From: Haladaptatus litoreus
Lineage (GTDB): Archaea; Halobacteriota; Halobacteria; Halobacteriales; Haladaptataceae
Assembly: GCF_900156425.1 (NCBI RefSeq)
Contig: NZ_FTNO01000002.1
Span: 540,125-604,124 of the forward strand
Direction: 5' to 3'
Length of the DNA: 64,000 nt
Shown: in pieces, positions 30,433 to 36,546 of the stretch
Numbering within the stretch: the first letter of the stretch is position 1
Layout of the letters: each line of letters opens with the position of its first letter
Translations under genes and position numbers: made by a program
The notes under the pieces: generated by a model
Database searches by the model: none
Seen by the model: the letters and a program-made list of their open reading frames with translations, nothing else
What the model was told of the DNA's origin: nothing

Positions 30433-32487
30433 TTACTCGTCATCATCGAACAGTTCGAGGTCGGCGACGATGTCGAACGGATGTCTGTCCTTCCTGATGC
30501 CGTCCACGATTCGGAAGGCTTCGTCGGGCGCGAGGAAGTGGCTCGTGATGACGCGCCCGAGGTGGGTTGGCGAAAAGCCGTCGATGAACTCGTATTCGAG
30601 CAGTTTGCCGAGTGCGTGCTTCGTCGGCACGTCGCCAATCATGCGGTCGTTCAGGCGCTTTGCGGCCTTGCCGCCGACCGTGACGTTCGCCAGCGTCTCC
30701 TCGATTGCGGCGCTCTCGTCGTAGAGCGTGCGCACGTCTTCCATCTCGCCTTTCAGCAGTTTAAACGCCACTTCGTCTTCCGACATCTCCATGCTGTTGT
30801 GATAGCTCCCGTCGGGTTCCACGAGGACGTACACTTTCCCGCGGTCGTGGTAGTCCGGGCGACCGGCGCGTCCGAGCATCTGGTGGAACTCCTGTACGGT
30901 GAGCCATTCGATACCCATCGCAAGCGAGTCGAAGATGACCTGTGAAGCAGGGAAATCGACACCCGCCGCGAGTGCCGCGGTCGTCACGACCGCCGACAGT
31001 TCCTGCTCGGCGAACATGCGCTCGACCTTCTTCCGCCGTCCGTAATCCAGTCCAGCGTGGTAGGGCGCGGCGTTGTACTCCAACTTTCGGGAAATCTCGT
31101 GACAGCGCCGCCGCGAGTTGGTGAAGATGATCGTCTGACCGCGATACCCCTTCGAGGATTCGCGGTCGAACTCGCGCTTGACGAGTTTGTTCTCGATGTT
31201 GGGTTTTTCCTGCCCGCTGGCGAAGGTGACGTGACGCTCCAGCGCGACCGGTCGTTCTTCGAACTCCACGAGATTCGCTTCGAGCGCCTGCGCGAGGTCG
31301 CGTGGATTGCCAACTGTCGCGGAGAGATACACCCACTGTGCGCCGCCGTAGTTCTGTTTTTGCTTCGCGCGCTTCTCGCAGTAGTATTTCAACCGCGAGA
31401 TGAGTCCGTCGAGTCGGTGCCCGCGCTCCTGTTCTTGTAGGGTGTGAACTTCGTCGATGACGACGGTTCCGATGTCGCCCAAATCGCGTCCGGTTCGCAG
31501 TGCGTGGTCGATTCCCTCGTAGGTTCCGACGATGATGTCCGCGTTCGGGTCGAATCTGTTACCGTCATCGCGCACGCGACTCGCGCCGACGCGGATGGTG
31601 ACGTTGGCGAGGTCGCCGTATTCGTCCTTGAAATCCTCGTGTTTCTGGTTCGCCAGTGCGACGAGGGGAACCAGAAAGAGCATCTTGCCTTGTCCGTTCA
31701 GCACCCGGTCGAGGCCGGTCATCTCTCCGACGAGGGTTTTTCCGGTCGCGGTCGCGCTGACGACGAGTTGGTCGTCGCCATCGAGTAGTCCGTTCTGTAC
31801 CGCGAGGCTCTGCACCGGAAGCAGGGTATCGAACCGTGATTCGAGTAGATTTTGAACACCGGGATGGAGATTCAGTGAATCCACTCGTTTCAGGTCTACA
31901 TCCTCCACGTTCGCGCTGATTTCGTCGAACTTCGTCAAATCCGGGTCGAGTCGCCCCTTGAGCAGGTTCGTGATTCGCTGCAAATCCTGCACCTCCAGCA
32001 GGAGGTCTTCGAGTCTGTCTTGAGCAGACCCAGTTAGGTTGCCCCTGAAGGAGAGTTCGCGCTCCAACTCCTCTGTCGCGCAGTCAGGACAGATGTACTC
32101 TTCTCCCGTATCGATCGCCGTTTCACTGCTGATTGGCGAATACTCCCCTTTGTTCGCACAGAGTCGGCAGGTTCGAACCGCCGTTGCATCGAGTTGATAC
32201 CCCGACAACATTTCTTTCAGCTCAGCTCGGCCATCAGGCGAGGTCTGCTGTGAAATCCGAATACGGTCTGCACCCCGGGCGAGTTCGATGAACTCGCCCG
32301 GACTGCGTGGCTTTTCGTTCGACCCGTCTTTCTGCATAAATCGCGCCGGACGCGGCCCGGCGCTCGTTTCCTTGAGTTCGAGAATTGCTCGGAACAGCCG
32401 CTTTCCGCCCTGCTGGGCGACGACTCGATAGCCGCGATCCGTTTCGTGGCAGAAGAGCGTCTCCACCTGCTGAGCCTGCTTCGACAC
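30433..32487 (-). CDS. DEAD/DEAH-box helicase, Ski2-like, with zinc-ribbon insert
   Basis: The 684-residue protein has an N-terminal domain with a four-Cys ribbon near residues 113-137 (CRLCANKGEYSP and CPDC). The superfamily 2 helicase core follows: Q-like region, motif I SATATGKTLVGE, motif II VIDEVHTL (DEVH), motif III LSATVGN, and a C-terminal domain with TIIFTNSRRRCHEISRKL and MLGRAGRPDYHDRG (motif VI). It is close to Ski2/Hel308-type enzymes that unwind RNA or DNA. A TATA-like TATTTTAG near 32510-32517 sits about 26 bases before the GTG at 32487, supporting that start. Confidence 0.85.
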   Translation of the reverse strand: MSKQAQQVETLFCHETDRGYRVVAQQGGKRLFRAILELKETSAGPRPARFMQKDGSNEKPRSPGEFIELARGADRIRISQQTSPDGRAELKEMLSGYQLDATAVRTCRLCANKGEYSPISSETAIDTGEEYICPDCATEELERELSFRGNLTGSAQDRLEDLLLEVQDLQRITNLLKGRLDPDLTKFDEISANVEDVDLKRVDSLNLHPGVQNLLESRFDTLLPVQSLAVQNGLLDGDDQLVVSATATGKTLVGEMTGLDRVLNGQGKMLFLVPLVALANQKHEDFKDEYGDLANVTIRVGASRVRDDGNRFDPNADIIVGTYEGIDHALRTGRDLGDIGTVVIDEVHTLQEQERGHRLDGLISRLKYYCEKRAKQKQNYGGAQWVYLSATVGNPRDLAQALEANLVEFEERPVALERHVTFASGQEKPNIENKLVKREFDRESSKGYRGQTIIFTNSRRRCHEISRKLEYNAAPYHAGLDYGRRKKVERMFAEQELSAVVTTAALAAGVDFPASQVIFDSLAMGIEWLTVQEFHQMLGRAGRPDYHDRGKVYVLVEPDGSYHNSMEMSEDEVAFKLLKGEMEDVRTLYDESAAIEETLANVTVGGKAAKRLNDRMIGDVPTKHALGKLLEYEFIDGFSPTHLGRVITSHFLAPDEAFRIVDGIRKDRHPFDIVADLELFDDDE
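32275..32301. repeat. Perfect inverted repeat inside the helicase gene
   Basis: CCGGGCGAGTTC (32275-32286) faces its reverse complement at 32290-32301 around a three-base centre, inside coding sequence for the SPGEFIELARG segment. Confidence 0.8.
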
Positions 32488-32516
32488 GGCGAGTGCTACA
32501 CGCTGAAGCTATTTTA

Positions 32517-32652
32517 GCGATTCGGACTGACCGAATCGCCCCATCGTTCAACGATGCCGTTTTTCCGCCGTGTTAGGCAGCACCAACTCCCATCGAAATC
32601 GGCCATTGAAAACCGTCAATGGTAGAATAACGCTCGCTCGCGGGCGTTATTC
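32517..32652. repeat. Four clustered hairpins upstream of the helicase gene
   Basis: Perfect inverted repeats: GCGATTCGG/CCGAATCGC at 32517-32539; CATCGT/ACGATG at 32542-32556, followed by a T run; CCATTGA/TCAATGG at 32603-32622; GAATAACGC/GCGTTATTC at 32625-32652. The 260-base gap between the helicase and the DUF7331-like gene holds no other gene. Confidence 0.7.
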
Positions 32653-32747
32653 CCGAAATACCGTTTTGGCAACCGGCTCATAACAAAGCCAGTCCATCCG
32701 CTAGCGCCAGTCAGCGCGCAGTAGCGCTCCACAGGTGACAGAACGTA

Positions 32748-32924
32748 ATGGACGGCACGCAAGAAGAAACACTCCCACGGCGGTTCGACGACAAGATTAT
32801 CTTAGAGATTGAGGACGGTTCGGATAAGGAACGACCGCTAATCCGAATGCGAGATACGCGAGCAGAAAAAGCGTGGGTATCCGCATCCATCGACACCGTG
32901 ATTTCGCTCTCTGAGCACCGCTAG
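32748..32924 (+). CDS. 58-residue haloarchaeal protein (DUF7331-like)
   Basis: The short ORF encodes MDGTQEETLPRRFDDKIILE, then IEDGSDKERPLIRMRD, and ends ISLSEHR. The acidic, compact composition and the pattern of a short strand followed by the RMRDTRAEKAWVSA segment match a small haloarchaeal family recalled as DUF7331. It is preceded by its own intergenic region and overlaps the cupin gene by four bases at the convergent 3-prime ends. Function is unknown. Confidence 0.65.
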   Translation: MDGTQEETLPRRFDDKIILEIEDGSDKERPLIRMRDTRAEKAWVSASIDTVISLSEHR

Positions 32925-33283
32925 ACGAGGTTAATTTCGTCGTCCCCGTTCGGCACCGCACAGAGGAACGCACCCGATTCGTCGCTTTCGTTTCGATACC
33001 AGTGAACAGCACCGGCAGGAATGAGCAGCGAGTCGCCAGCACTGACTTCGTACTCTTCGCCTTCGATGCCGACGGTGTACTCGCCCTCTAAAACGTACTG
33101 TTCGTGTTCGACTTCGTTCGTGTGCTCCGGCACTTCTGCTCCGGGTTCCAGCGTAAACCGCCGAATCGCAAAGTTCGGCGCGCCCTGTTCGTCGCCGATG
33201 AGGACGCCTTTCGCCATTCCTTCTGCGGCTCCGACTGCTTCGTACTCTACCTCGTCTCCGTTCCGCACGATTGGGTCGGCCAT
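32921..33283 (-). CDS. Cupin domain protein
   Basis: The 120-residue single-domain cupin has the metal-binding motifs PEHTNEVEHEQYVLEGEYTV (His54, His60 and Glu64-type ligands) and GDSLLIPAGAVHWYRN with the second-motif His. The barrel may bind a metal and act as a small enzyme or sensor; substrate unknown. It begins 24 bases after the stop of the TnpB-like gene on the same strand, with a GCCGC/GCGGC hairpin between, so the two are probably one transcription unit. No clear TATA box separates them. Confidence 0.85.
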   Translation of the reverse strand: MADPIVRNGDEVEYEAVGAAEGMAKGVLIGDEQGAPNFAIRRFTLEPGAEVPEHTNEVEHEQYVLEGEYTVGIEGEEYEVSAGDSLLIPAGAVHWYRNESDESGAFLCAVPNGDDEINLV

Positions 33284-33285
33284 AC

Positions 33286-33302
33286 GCCGCTTTTCACGCG
33301 GC
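33286..33302 (-). repeat. Small hairpin between the TnpB-like and cupin genes
   Basis: GCCGC at 33286-33290 faces GCGGC at 33298-33302 with a seven-base loop. It fills most of the 24-base gap. It could be part of a TnpB-associated guide RNA 3-prime end or a short processing hairpin; this is inference. Confidence 0.4.
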
Positions 33303-33307
33303 AGGGG

Positions 33308-34549
33308 CTAAGGTTTTTGCACTTCCGCGAGTTCCTCGTTCGGAACGAAATCCCCGTCCGGGGTGACTCGCCCCGAACCGAGCGCACAGTATTTCGCGCC
33401 GACGCCGCGCGACGAGAGTGGCCCGCGGCGAATGCATCGAAACCCGACGTTTTTCGCCGCGTTGTAGTGGTCGTTCGCCTCGTTACCGCATTTGAGACAT
33501 TCGAAATGAGTTCGTTCGGCGTCGCGGTTCTGCGGGTGCGTGAATCCGCAGGACGTACATCGCTGGCTAGTGTACTCCGGATTCACCTGTGCAACCGTGA
33601 TTCCGTGCTCTTCTGCCCGGTAGGCGACGAAATCGAACAGTCGCTCGAACGCCCACGCGTGGAACTCGTCGGCTTCGGGAAGCAGTTCTCGTACCGCTTC
33701 GAGTTCACCGAACGCGATGACTGAACAGCCGTGTTTTTCGGCTTCCTCGACAATTCCGCCCGCGACGGTGTGGAGGGTATCTCGCGCGAAATTGTCGTTT
33801 TTGTCGCCTGCCTGCCGAAGGGTTCGGAGTGCGCTCCGGGTGTCTGTTTCGTGGAGGGCCGTCCGGAGTTCCGAAAATTCGCGGTGACGATGGTCGAGTT
33901 TCTCGCCGGAAAAGAACCGAGCGGTGCTGGTTACTGCCACGTTTTCGACGCCGAGTGCGACCCCGAGAACCGTGGCGTCGTTTTCGCTCGATTCGACTTC
34001 GTCCGACGCGCCGATTTCCGGTCGCTCTGCTCGAAAGCCGAGATGTAAATCGAACTGGCCGTCGCGATAGCAGAGGTTACTCTTTGCCGCTTCCCATCGG
34101 TCATCGTTCAAATACTGCGTCAGATAGCTCCCGTCGGGAAAGACGAGGTCGCAGTGAACGCGCTCTTCGGTCGTCGTCAAACTGACCGCCCTGTCGTCGA
34201 ACAGCGTCATCGTCCGCGTGTCGTAGACAACCGTCGGACTGGTGAAGGTCGGCTTGTCGGCGTTTTCGGTTGTACCGTCGTTTCTATCGAGAACGCCTTT
34301 TATCGCTTCCGCGGCGCGATGGGTTGCGAGGACGGCGTGCTGACTGCCGAGGTCGGTTCGCTCGCGGAGGACATCGTAGGCGAGCTTTTGCACCTCACTG
34401 CGCGTGTGGCAGTTCCCCCATGCTGTGTTAACAGCTATTTGACACCCGCGTTTCCATTCGCGCACCATCGCCAGCAGGTGCTCGTGGTCGGTCGAATCGA
34501 CCGCGAGGCGAGTTACTGCTGTCCGCTTGAAATATTCAGGACCGCTCAC
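33308..34549 (-). CDS. TnpB (IS1341-type) homologue, predicted nuclease-dead
   Basis: The 413-residue protein is full length for the haloarchaeal IS1341 TnpB family. Its N-terminus (YFKRTAVTRLAVDS), TFTSPTVVYDTRTMTLFDD wedge region and C-terminal zinc finger (Cys331, Cys334, Cys351, Cys354) are intact. The three RuvC acidic positions are all changed. The usual GVDLG reads GVALG (Ala198, codon GCA at 33956-33958), the usual AFEDL reads AFGEL (Gly281), and the usual ADYNAA reads NDHYNAA (His361). Cleavage should be lost while RNA-guided DNA binding could persist. No tnpA or clear element ends are seen. The family alignment is from memory. Confidence 0.85.
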   Translation of the reverse strand: MSGPEYFKRTAVTRLAVDSTDHEHLLAMVREWKRGCQIAVNTAWGNCHTRSEVQKLAYDVLRERTDLGSQHAVLATHRAAEAIKGVLDRNDGTTENADKPTFTSPTVVYDTRTMTLFDDRAVSLTTTEERVHCDLVFPDGSYLTQYLNDDRWEAAKSNLCYRDGQFDLHLGFRAERPEIGASDEVESSENDATVLGVALGVENVAVTSTARFFSGEKLDHRHREFSELRTALHETDTRSALRTLRQAGDKNDNFARDTLHTVAGGIVEEAEKHGCSVIAFGELEAVRELLPEADEFHAWAFERLFDFVAYRAEEHGITVAQVNPEYTSQRCTSCGFTHPQNRDAERTHFECLKCGNEANDHYNAAKNVGFRCIRRGPLSSRGVGAKYCALGSGRVTPDGDFVPNEELAEVQKP

Positions 34550-34639
34550 GCTATTTTCTCCCCGGAGCGCCCCCTTGAATACTTCGGAGACGATTTGAGC
34601 GCGAAGAAGTTTAAGACGTTTCCGACGCTAGATACCCCC

Positions 34640-35806
34640 ATGCGTAGCTTCAAAATCGGGAGTGCGTTCGGCATCCCGATTAAACTCGACCTCACCTTCC
34701 TGCTCATCCTGCCCGTGTTCGCGTGGCTCATCGGGACGCAGGTCGGCGACTGGGTCGAAATAATGAACCCGCTGTTGGGACTCGGACTGACAACCGAACC
34801 GCTGACGACCGGAATGATGCCGTGGATTCTCGGAGCCGCCGCCGCAGTCGGTCTGTTCGTTGGCGTCGTCCTCCACGAACTCGGCCACTCGGTCGTCGCA
34901 ATGCGATTCGGTTTCCCGATAGACTCAATCACACTGTGGATTTTCGGCGGTATCGCCCGCCTCACGGACCAACCGGAGGACTGGCTCGAAGAACTGCTCA
35001 TCGCAATCGCAGGGCCGGTCGTCAGCATCGCCCTCGGCGTCGGTTCCTATCTCGCGCTGTTCGCCATTCCGGTGCAGATGGACGCGGTTCGGTTCGTCGT
35101 CGCCTACCTCGCGCTGATGAACATCGTGCTTGCCGTGTTCAACCTCCTTCCCGGTTTCCCGATGGACGGCGGGAGAGTCTTGCGCGCACTGCTCGCACGA
35201 ACGCGGCCGTTTGCCGAAGCAACGCAAACCGCCGCCGAAGTCGGAAAACTGTTCGCCATCCTCCTCGGCCTGTTCGGCCTATTCGCTGGCAACATCATCC
35301 TCATCGGTATCGCCTTTTTCATCTACATCGGGGCGACCGGCGAAGCGCAGCAAACCGTCCTCTCGGCGGCTTTCAGCGGCGTTCTCGTCCGCGACGTGAT
35401 GACCGACGAAACGGACTTAGAAACCGTCTCGTCGGACACCTCCATCGCCGACCTGCTGGAAATGATGTTCCAACAGCGTCACACCGGCTATCCGGTCGTT
35501 GACGACGGCGAACTCGTCGGGATGATAACCTTGGACGACGCGCGGAGCGTTCGACCTGTCGAACGCGACGCCTACAGAGTTCGGGAAGTGATGTCCACCG
35601 ACGTGAAGACGATTCCCGCCGACAGCAATGCCTTGGACGCCCTCGAAACCATCCAACAGCACGGCATCGGTCGTTTGCCGGTTATCGACGCCGAGGGAGA
35701 GATTGCGGGTATCATCTCCCGAACCGACCTGATGACGGCGTTCGACATCATCAAAAGCAGCGGTCGCTCCGAAGAAGAACTGGCGCCCCGCGAACAGCCT
35801 TCCTAA
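34640..35806 (+). CDS. Site-2 protease family (M50) metalloprotease with CBS pair
   Basis: The 388-residue protein has six or so membrane helices and the intramembrane zinc site HELGH (residues 79-83) with the distal NLLPGFPMDGGRVL motif near residue 170. Two CBS domains follow (about 245-300, VRDVMTDETDLETVSSDT; and 310-370, VREVMSTDVKTIPADSNALD), which usually bind adenosyl ligands and regulate activity. S2P proteases cleave membrane-bound regulators. It is divergent from the TnpB-like gene, with a 90-base gap. The ATG at 34640 begins the conserved FKIGSAFGIPIKLDLTF. Confidence 0.9.
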   Translation: MRSFKIGSAFGIPIKLDLTFLLILPVFAWLIGTQVGDWVEIMNPLLGLGLTTEPLTTGMMPWILGAAAAVGLFVGVVLHELGHSVVAMRFGFPIDSITLWIFGGIARLTDQPEDWLEELLIAIAGPVVSIALGVGSYLALFAIPVQMDAVRFVVAYLALMNIVLAVFNLLPGFPMDGGRVLRALLARTRPFAEATQTAAEVGKLFAILLGLFGLFAGNIILIGIAFFIYIGATGEAQQTVLSAAFSGVLVRDVMTDETDLETVSSDTSIADLLEMMFQQRHTGYPVVDDGELVGMITLDDARSVRPVERDAYRVREVMSTDVKTIPADSNALDALETIQQHGIGRLPVIDAEGEIAGIISRTDLMTAFDIIKSSGRSEEELAPREQPS

Positions 35807-35865
35807 CTGTCCTCCCGTTGACTCCTAACGTCGTGTTTAACCCTGTTCCGAGCGAACGTTCTTCC

Positions 35866-36546
35866 ATGTGCGGTCGTCTCTCACTGTTCGCTCCCGAAGC
35901 CGACCTCACGGAGCGATTCGACGCAGTCCCGACCCGCCCGATCCGACCCCGATACAACGTCGCGCCGGGCCAAGACCATCCAGTTGTCCGGAATGACGCA
36001 CCCGACGAAATGCACTTTCCGACGTGGGGTTTCGTCCCCCACTGGGCCGACGAGTTCGGCGGCGGCCACATCAACGCTCGCGCGGAGACGCTGGCCGAGA
36101 AACCGACGTTTCGGGACGCTTACCGCGAACGCCGCTGTCTCGTCCTCGCGGATGGCTTCTACGACTGGAAGAAAACGGCGACCGGAAAACAGCCATATCG
36201 GATGACCAGAGCGGATGGAAAACCGTTTGCGATGGCCGGACTGTGGGAACCGTGGCAGAACGGCGAACAGAAAACCTCGTTTACGGTGGTCACGACCGAA
36301 CCGAACGACCTCGTCGGCGAGATTCATCATCGAATGCCCGTGATTCTGGCGGAAGACGAGGAATCACGGTGGCTTCACGATGACGAAGAGGAGTTCGAAT
36401 CGGTGTTGGATACGTTCCCCGGCAACGAGATGCGAGCCTATCCCGTCTCGAAGCGGGTCAACAGTCCGAAAAACGATTCGCCGGAGTTGGTGGCAGAAGT
36501 GATGGCGGAGGAGGATGCACAGACAGGGTTGGGAGATTTTAGCTAA
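35866..36546 (+). CDS. SOS response-associated peptidase / HMCES (YedK) family protein
   Basis: The 226-residue protein begins MCGRLSLF, so Cys2 becomes N-terminal after Met removal and can form a thiazolidine cross-link with abasic sites in single-stranded DNA. Further family landmarks are RPRYNVAPGQDHPVV, TWGFVPHWADE, INARAETLAEKPTF, CLVLADGFYDWKK and EIHHRMPVIL with the conserved His. It protects abasic sites during replication. The ATG at 35866 is essential for the Cys2 chemistry, so the upstream in-frame codon at 35818 is rejected. Confidence 0.93.
   Translation: MCGRLSLFAPEADLTERFDAVPTRPIRPRYNVAPGQDHPVVRNDAPDEMHFPTWGFVPHWADEFGGGHINARAETLAEKPTFRDAYRERRCLVLADGFYDWKKTATGKQPYRMTRADGKPFAMAGLWEPWQNGEQKTSFTVVTTEPNDLVGEIHHRMPVILAEDEESRWLHDDEEEFESVLDTFPGNEMRAYPVSKRVNSPKNDSPELVAEVMAEEDAQTGLGDFS

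Follow-up and report, generated by a model that had tools for sequence, protein, structure and literature searches.

A nuclease-dead, domesticated TnpB homologue in haloarchaea that has probably lost its cis-encoded guide RNA

In the literature covered here, the domesticated dead TnpBs on record come from bacteria and retain their guides. A search by title and beginning of the abstract, which extended neither to the paper reporting the discovery of TldRs nor to the 2023 survey of TnpB and Cas12, showed no nuclease-dead TnpB from archaea among the entries listed. Among the type V effectors, Cas12k is known to be binding-only. Likewise, Cas12m2 carries a RuvC domain that does not cut double-stranded DNA (dsDNA) and acts as a binding effector (PMC10442227), while bacterial TldRs are reported to keep both guide RNA (gRNA) and DNA binding (PMC13418256). 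TnpBs with a rearranged RuvC-II also exist, one ortholog being reported as active (PMC10278001), and in the rearranged pattern a Glu precedes the first zinc Cys by seven residues (PMC10711439). Archaeal omegaRNAs are covered by PMC12558985, in the excerpted text of which the terms nuclease-dead, TldR, domesticat-, inactive and catalytic do not occur. Here, we describe a TnpB homologue encoded in Haladaptatus litoreus within 64,000 nt of contig NZ_FTNO01000002.1 (positions 540,125-604,124), a stretch that we call the window and whose coordinates are used throughout. The protein is almost certainly dead as a nuclease and domesticated, and its cis-encoded omegaRNA has very probably been lost.

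The open reading frame (ORF) comprises 413 codons without internal stop, at exactly the coordinates proposed by a first-pass annotation made from the DNA letters alone, and lies on the minus strand. That annotation had also named three replaced catalytic residues as well as two retained Cys pairs, with which the codons agree exactly:

33308-34549, minus strand: nuclease-dead TnpB homologue of 413 aa with GTG start, identified by family profiles, orthologues and tree
33956-33958, minus strand: codon 198, Ala replacing the RuvC-I Asp (GVALG), by codon check and alignment
33707-33709, minus strand: codon 281, Gly replacing the RuvC-II Glu (AFGEL), by codon check; Gly in 27 of 27 orthologues
33467-33469, minus strand: codon 361, His replacing the RuvC-III Asp (NDHYNAA), by codon check; in 4 of 27 orthologues
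33488-33559, minus strand: zinc finger of the TNB domain with all four Cys kept (C331/C334 and C351/C354), by codon check

By sequence and predicted fold, the protein is a member of the TnpB superfamily. It scored 122.5 bits against the NCBIfam profile guided_TnpB (NF040570; cut-off 100) and 67.9 bits against the Pfam TNB domain (PF07282), while the Pfam OrfB_IS605 profile gave 18.6 bits, under its cut-off of 30.5. An AlphaFold model (mean predicted local distance difference test score, pLDDT, 73.6; predicted template modelling score, pTM, 0.48) returned Cas12f on top in Foldseek (7wju, 5.7e-20; TnpB 8h1j, 1.7e-14; 8exa, 4.2e-11). The Asp-Glu-Asp (D-E-D) triad of an RNA-guided nuclease is nevertheless missing from the window protein, which has A198, G281 and H361, the counterparts of D191, E278 and D361 in ISDra2 TnpB (PMC10097598). 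Relatives from other loci or other families are 48-53% identical to it over almost the full length, and those of other families display D, E and D at these positions in every aligned row shown; thus, the alignment leaves the window protein without acids precisely where its relatives have them. Relatives with an intact triad are hereafter labelled “active”.

One close orthologue each was found in 27 of the 28 genomes of the haloarchaeal family (63-100% identical by the search's own identities; loci L061 and L033 are the same contig, from Haladaptatus pallidirubidus), the sole genome without one (G025) being 62% complete. An order-wide search of 392 genomes, evenly drawn from a larger group, had its next full-length matches, among those listed, at 53-54% identity. 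Furthermore, the 27 orthologue rows form a single clade with support of 100/100, and the active rows fall on the opposite side. A mobile IS1341 element would show multiple copies at variable sites; instead, there is one orthologue per genome, at a single locus in 20 of the 20 that were fetched. Gly281 is shared by all 27 orthologues, whereas Asp198 is replaced by Ala or Ser in only nine orthologues, all of the window's genus, and retained in the remaining 18; Asp361 is replaced by His in four (the window, L032, L033 and L034) and retained in 23. Both aspartates are kept in 18 orthologues, 17 belonging to the genus g3 and the single one to g2. Because these substitutions nest on the tree, the residues were lost stepwise, Glu before Asp198 and Asp198 before Asp361. 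The joint loss that the first-pass annotation had implied is therefore not borne out: the absence of all three residues holds for the window's sub-clade of four genomes and does not extend to the other orthologues.

Taken by themselves, the losses of catalytic residues and of the omegaRNA could point to a decaying, functionless remnant. We regard this as extremely improbable, since none of the 27 orthologous frames contains an internal stop, the ratio of nonsynonymous to synonymous substitution (dN/dS) stays at 0.084-0.229 over 83 pairs, and the promoter is better conserved than those of control genes. Among 28 pairs from the window's genus, the median dN/dS was 0.147 (0.100-0.207), and among 55 g3 pairs it was 0.158 (0.084-0.229), compared with 0.109 and 0.102 in the active groups; the dead groups contain neither L073 nor the protein of the window, which is represented by its 95% sister, and they hold 11 of the 17 g3 orthologues. 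An orthologue in 27 of 28 genomes, one clade, a dN/dS of about 0.15 and one locus argue against random decay, and the proposal that catalysis was lost while the frame and most other constraint were kept is well supported, as is domestication.

In an alignment of 19 of the 20 active loci (L091 was left out) with 21 dead proteins, 113 positions were invariant among the active proteins, and 77 of these were also unchanged in all dead ones. Kept invariants amounted to 11 of 15 in residues 1-60, 14 of 18 in 61-120, 12 of 19 in 121-185, 8 of 10 in 301-345 and 10 of 13 in 346-380, and to only 4 of 14 in residues 241-300. Substitutions that all dead rows share and no active row has include E281G, A360D, Q78R, E156K and K311R (with the commonest active residue given first). 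On a common numbering, divergence over 30-residue windows peaks in both dead groups at 271-300, surrounding the lost Glu (0.33 and 0.33), for which the closest active group has 0.08 and the second 0.15; over all 19 active rows the value is 0.38, unremarkable within a range of 0.23-0.42. Changed catalytic positions accompany a nucleic-acid-binding lobe of which much is conserved, in line with the binding without cutting that the first-pass annotation had suggested.

Another possibility is that the glutamate moved rather than vanished, such that the g3 and g2 proteins still cut and the window's genus alone is dead. D198 and D361 are indeed kept in g3 and g2, E325 and D360 are invariant across the dead rows, E285 occurs in all g3 rows, and an active rearranged ortholog has been reported, as mentioned above. 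Moreover, rearranged paralogues exist in the same genome: 25 of its 29 other TNB-domain loci yield an ORF, giving 20 rows of at least 270 aa and, as L001 and L028 are the same ORF, 19 distinct TnpB ORFs, 16 of which have D-E-D, whereas three (L015, L024 and L025) have Gly at the canonical RuvC-II position and a Glu seven residues ahead of the first zinc Cys. The dead rows, however, have Pro324 at this Fanzor-like position in 28 of 28 cases, and E325 lies one residue off and is also present in rows with the canonical Glu. In addition, the omegaRNA is missing in g3 too, where 271-300 is again the most divergent window. We therefore consider a relocated glutamate highly improbable, and rearrangement cannot rescue the window protein in any case, because both of its aspartates are gone.

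Several side observations concern other TnpB loci. L015, L024 and L025 represent a Fanzor-like rearranged layout in an archaeon. A single element-laden replicon (G000:C6, 397787 bases) accounts for 23 of the 30 own-genome TNB-domain matches. At eight of 20 active loci (L088, L092, L093, L098, L100, L101, L102 and L103), a tRNA gene lies no more than about 200 bp from the tnpB, as would be expected if such genes were favoured as sites or targeted by guides. Finally, a CRISPR array (RF01337, 15 repeats listed; L100:40-992) shares a 7 kb stretch with an active tnpB.

Dead and active genes also differ at their 3' ends. Active relatives possess a structured RNA across the 3' end of tnpB, mostly terminating in a hairpin and GTTGAC, and its consensus fold comprises 50 pairs, in 11 of which both partners change. 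Rfam listed no known RNA for window positions 32000-36000 (three chance-level matches lay beneath the gathering score), and at gathering scores it found no omegaRNA in the 20 active loci; because active omegaRNAs escape Rfam as well, its silence is uninformative, and a covariance model of our own, R1, was therefore built from nine of these loci, which match by construction, the other 11 being unused. R1 recovered the omegaRNA in all 20 active loci at 95.8-212.2 bits. Across 20 dead loci its best score was 15.3 bits, reached in L082 at the corresponding position, and 7 of 26 dead loci gave weak matches with E of 0.0078-0.98, the best again being 15.3 bits (L045, from the same genome as L082). 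This trace is best read as a relic, since mainly the coding part is matched and the terminal hairpin is skipped. With filters off, the window scored 2.4 bits at the homologous place, and its best match (6.7 bits, E 0.032) was on the opposite strand at 34481-34633. Thus, no omegaRNA scaffold was detected at the dead locus, where a cis guide was sought by scaffold landmarks only, and the terminal hairpin and GTTGAC end are absent from the 3' end of the dead genes.

Four-fold degenerate sites distinguish the two kinds of gene independently. Toward the 3' end, their values fall to 0.18 and 0.28 in one active group (mean 0.35) and to 0.35 and 0.24 in the other (mean 0.41); the dead groups show no such fall, with 0.36 and 0.43 (mean 0.42) and 0.43 and 0.39 (mean 0.36; 16-21 sites for each value, in 30-column windows of each group's own alignment). 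Residues 361-390 of the dead groups, on the other hand, differ by just 0.05 and 0.01. As synonymous sites are free while residues are conserved, the C-terminal tail of the dead proteins appears to be kept as protein and not as RNA:

33311-33439, minus strand: C-terminal tail, residues 371-413, with conserved protein and varying synonymous sites; the same DNA encodes the omegaRNA in active relatives

In ISDra2, the C-terminal domain was reported to be dispensable for cleavage (PMC10097598).

These results bear directly on whether the family could be TldR-like after all, namely an RNA-guided repressor served by a guide RNA in trans or by a cis RNA too changed for the model. The conservation of much of the nucleic-acid-binding lobe, the weak R1 matches at seven dead loci, the retention of gRNA by bacterial TldRs and the occurrence of an R1 match (E <= 1) somewhere in 24 of the 28 family genomes would all fit. 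However, four genomes (G005, G009, G020 and G026) have the orthologue and no R1 match at this threshold, and the dead 3' end lacks synonymous constraint, terminal hairpin and GTTGAC. Moreover, all 11 non-orthologous relatives at 46-56% identity in genomes of the same family have an R1 match, with scores of 56 bits or more. More broadly, 33 of 52 typed non-orthologous rows had a match near the 3' end, and the 19 misses were all at 38-42% identity (52 of 53 rows were typed, the N-terminal fragment G024:C1:499944-500405 being left out, and only matches of at least 47.6 bits were counted). An RNA-guided repressor therefore seems unlikely to us, though less so than the other alternatives.

The gene has fixed surroundings. 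Its neighbours are two genes that we named from their sequences, rather than by a family search, and which we take to be the following:

34640-35806, plus strand: divergent M50 (site-2-type) protease with CBS domains
32921-33283, minus strand: cupin-like gene on the same strand as tnpB

In the window, the cupin gene begins 24 bp past the tnpB stop, and the ATG of the protease is 90 bp apart from the tnpB start. Of the 20 fetched orthologue loci, all but L073 contain the M50-CBS gene (19), all but L078 the cupin gene (19), and 18 a helicase gene, at least one of M50 and cupin being present at every locus. Among 20 loci of other families, hand-picked from the places found by the M50/cupin search, M50 and cupin are direct divergent neighbours in 11, with a gap of 64-129 bp; other DNA separates them in seven, no cupin lies in the stretch in two, and none of the 20 has a tnpB match. 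With 11 such empty sites and no tnpB in any of the 20, tnpB most likely inserted in the family ancestor. As side observations, the intervening DNA in some of the other families (L186-L192) measures 1.0-2.5 kb and is not tnpB, and in the window's genus the last stretch of the dead tnpB frame (GTGCAAAAACCTTAG or similar; window 33284-33330 and loci L065-L072) may also serve the cupin gene as its promoter.

Upstream of the gene, one element is strictly preserved:

34574-34584, minus strand: invariant AAGTATTCAAG upstream of the GTG, a probable TATA region and possible operator that includes TTCAA, by locus comparison

It precedes the start codon in the window and in 20 of 20 loci, and the 45 bases before the tnpB start have an identity of 0.86 in both groups. 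Control promoters of the window's genus and g3 gave 0.72 and 0.59 for M50, 0.70 and 0.55 for cupin and 0.78 and 0.77 for the helicase, and two further ones, available for the window's genus only, 0.48 and 0.78 (L073 was omitted throughout, and cupin and helicase had 10 rows in g3). The 11-mer AAGTATTCAAG occurs at the locus in 17 of 17 family genomes searched, with nine extra copies elsewhere in total and four for the reversed control. A search of the own genome for CGAAGTATTCAAGNNG with up to two mismatches found 17 places versus 18 for its reversed control; as the count equals control level, there is no regulon signal. We also considered AAGTATTCAAG as a retained target-adjacent motif (TAM) or insertion-site relic and rejected this, as the 11 empty-site gaps do not contain it. 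TTCAA is part of the motif that precedes the left ends of active relatives: by eye, 13 active copies have TTCAAC in nine cases and TCAAC in 11. We regard AAGTATTCAAG as a possible operator, a lead and not a result.

The shared TTCAA raises the idea of an antagonist, in which the dead protein would bind the omegaRNAs or the target sites of active TnpBs and so shield the chromosome. TnpB relatives with omegaRNA matches do reside in many of the same genomes. An antagonist, however, would need neither a fixed locus nor a conserved promoter, and the orthologue persists in the four genomes without any R1 match; we thus find this role quite improbable.

What, then, might such a protein do? The comparison shows a tnpB that, most likely in an ancestor of the haloarchaeal family, came to sit where the M50-protease and cupin genes diverge. 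Its RuvC-II glutamate was lost first and both aspartates later in the window's lineage, and the overlapping omegaRNA very probably eroded. Vertical inheritance, with one orthologue per genome under purifying selection, followed. In the scenario we prefer, the protein would no longer cut, would have no cis-encoded guide and would be retained for nucleic-acid binding. Its likeliest job would be local control of transcription, in which its conserved REC, WED and TNB parts might read DNA at its own promoter and perhaps at the divergent protease promoter 90 bp off. As a whole, this explanation of a domesticated dead TnpB without its cis guide and with a local regulatory role is our favoured one, held with a confidence that falls just short of even. 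Its last element, a local DNA-binding regulator, is conceivable from the conserved promoter and lobe, and we would put it somewhat below an even chance. Its boldest form, a guide-free TnpB that lost catalysis and its own guide and became a protein-only, motif-reading regulator of its own locus, is a tentative idea that we find less likely than not; if true, it would mark the first departure of this kind from RNA guidance, and would do so in archaea.

Several points weigh against this scenario. To our knowledge, guide-RNA-free DNA binding is not established for TnpB, and RNA binding would explain the conserved REC/WED lobe just as well. Seven of 26 dead loci give weak R1 matches, and the g3 and g2 orthologues with both aspartates could in principle retain some activity. 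Regarding the promoter, AAGTATTCAAG may be no more than a strong TATA box and transcription factor B recognition element (BRE) belonging to a leaderless promoter; conservation at the helicase promoter comes close, and the search for a regulon motif found none. Lastly, relaxation around RuvC-II is clear only in comparison with the closest active group, a limit for which we did not lower our confidence, since our conclusion draws chiefly on other findings.

The family has significance whichever way its mode of binding turns out, as either a guide-free or a trans-guided protein would be new. The order of events is visible in an archaeal lineage, in which Glu, one Asp and the other Asp were lost in turn and the guide seems to have eroded while much of the binding lobe, and the promoter, stayed under selection. 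It raises the testable question of what role a TnpB plays that lacks both its scissors and its cis guide, and the 27 orthologues, together with the empty sites and the family's active sisters, already provide a set of harmless archaea in which to address it by comparison.

Among the known systems, the active haloarchaeal IS200/IS605 (IS1341-type) TnpBs such as L089 and L093 share 48-53% identity, the zinc finger and the C-terminal layout with the window protein; these, in contrast, have D-E-D and a structured omegaRNA, while the window family occupies one locus with one orthologue per genome. The Glu-rearranged TnpBs and pro-Fanzors likewise have their canonical RuvC-II Glu replaced, but their Glu stands seven residues ahead of the first zinc Cys, where the window family has Pro324. 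Cas12m and Cas12k resemble it in a RuvC that does not cut dsDNA and in a protein kept for binding; unlike the window family, both are CRISPR-associated and guided by CRISPR RNA (crRNA). With the TldRs it has several features in common: a TnpB body with inactivated RuvC, a full-length conserved frame, domestication and a fixed association with non-transposon genes (here M50 and cupin, each at 19 of 20 loci). The first-pass annotation had accordingly proposed an archaeal TldR, a classification that proved too simple, as no guide RNA was found beside the gene (at most 15.3 bits at dead loci versus 95.8-212 at active ones) and the synonymous sites of its 3' end are unconstrained. For want of this guide at the locus, we do not file the family as TldR, though it may work alike. 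Its origin was presumably separate from that of the bacterial TldRs, because it arose within the haloarchaeal TnpB clade, in a tree built without bacterial TldRs. In our reading, the family is a dead TnpB of archaea, domesticated on its own, which resembles the TldRs yet lacks one of their defining features: they keep their guides, whereas the window family, archaeal, chromosomal and settled between M50 and cupin, has no detectable guide in cis.
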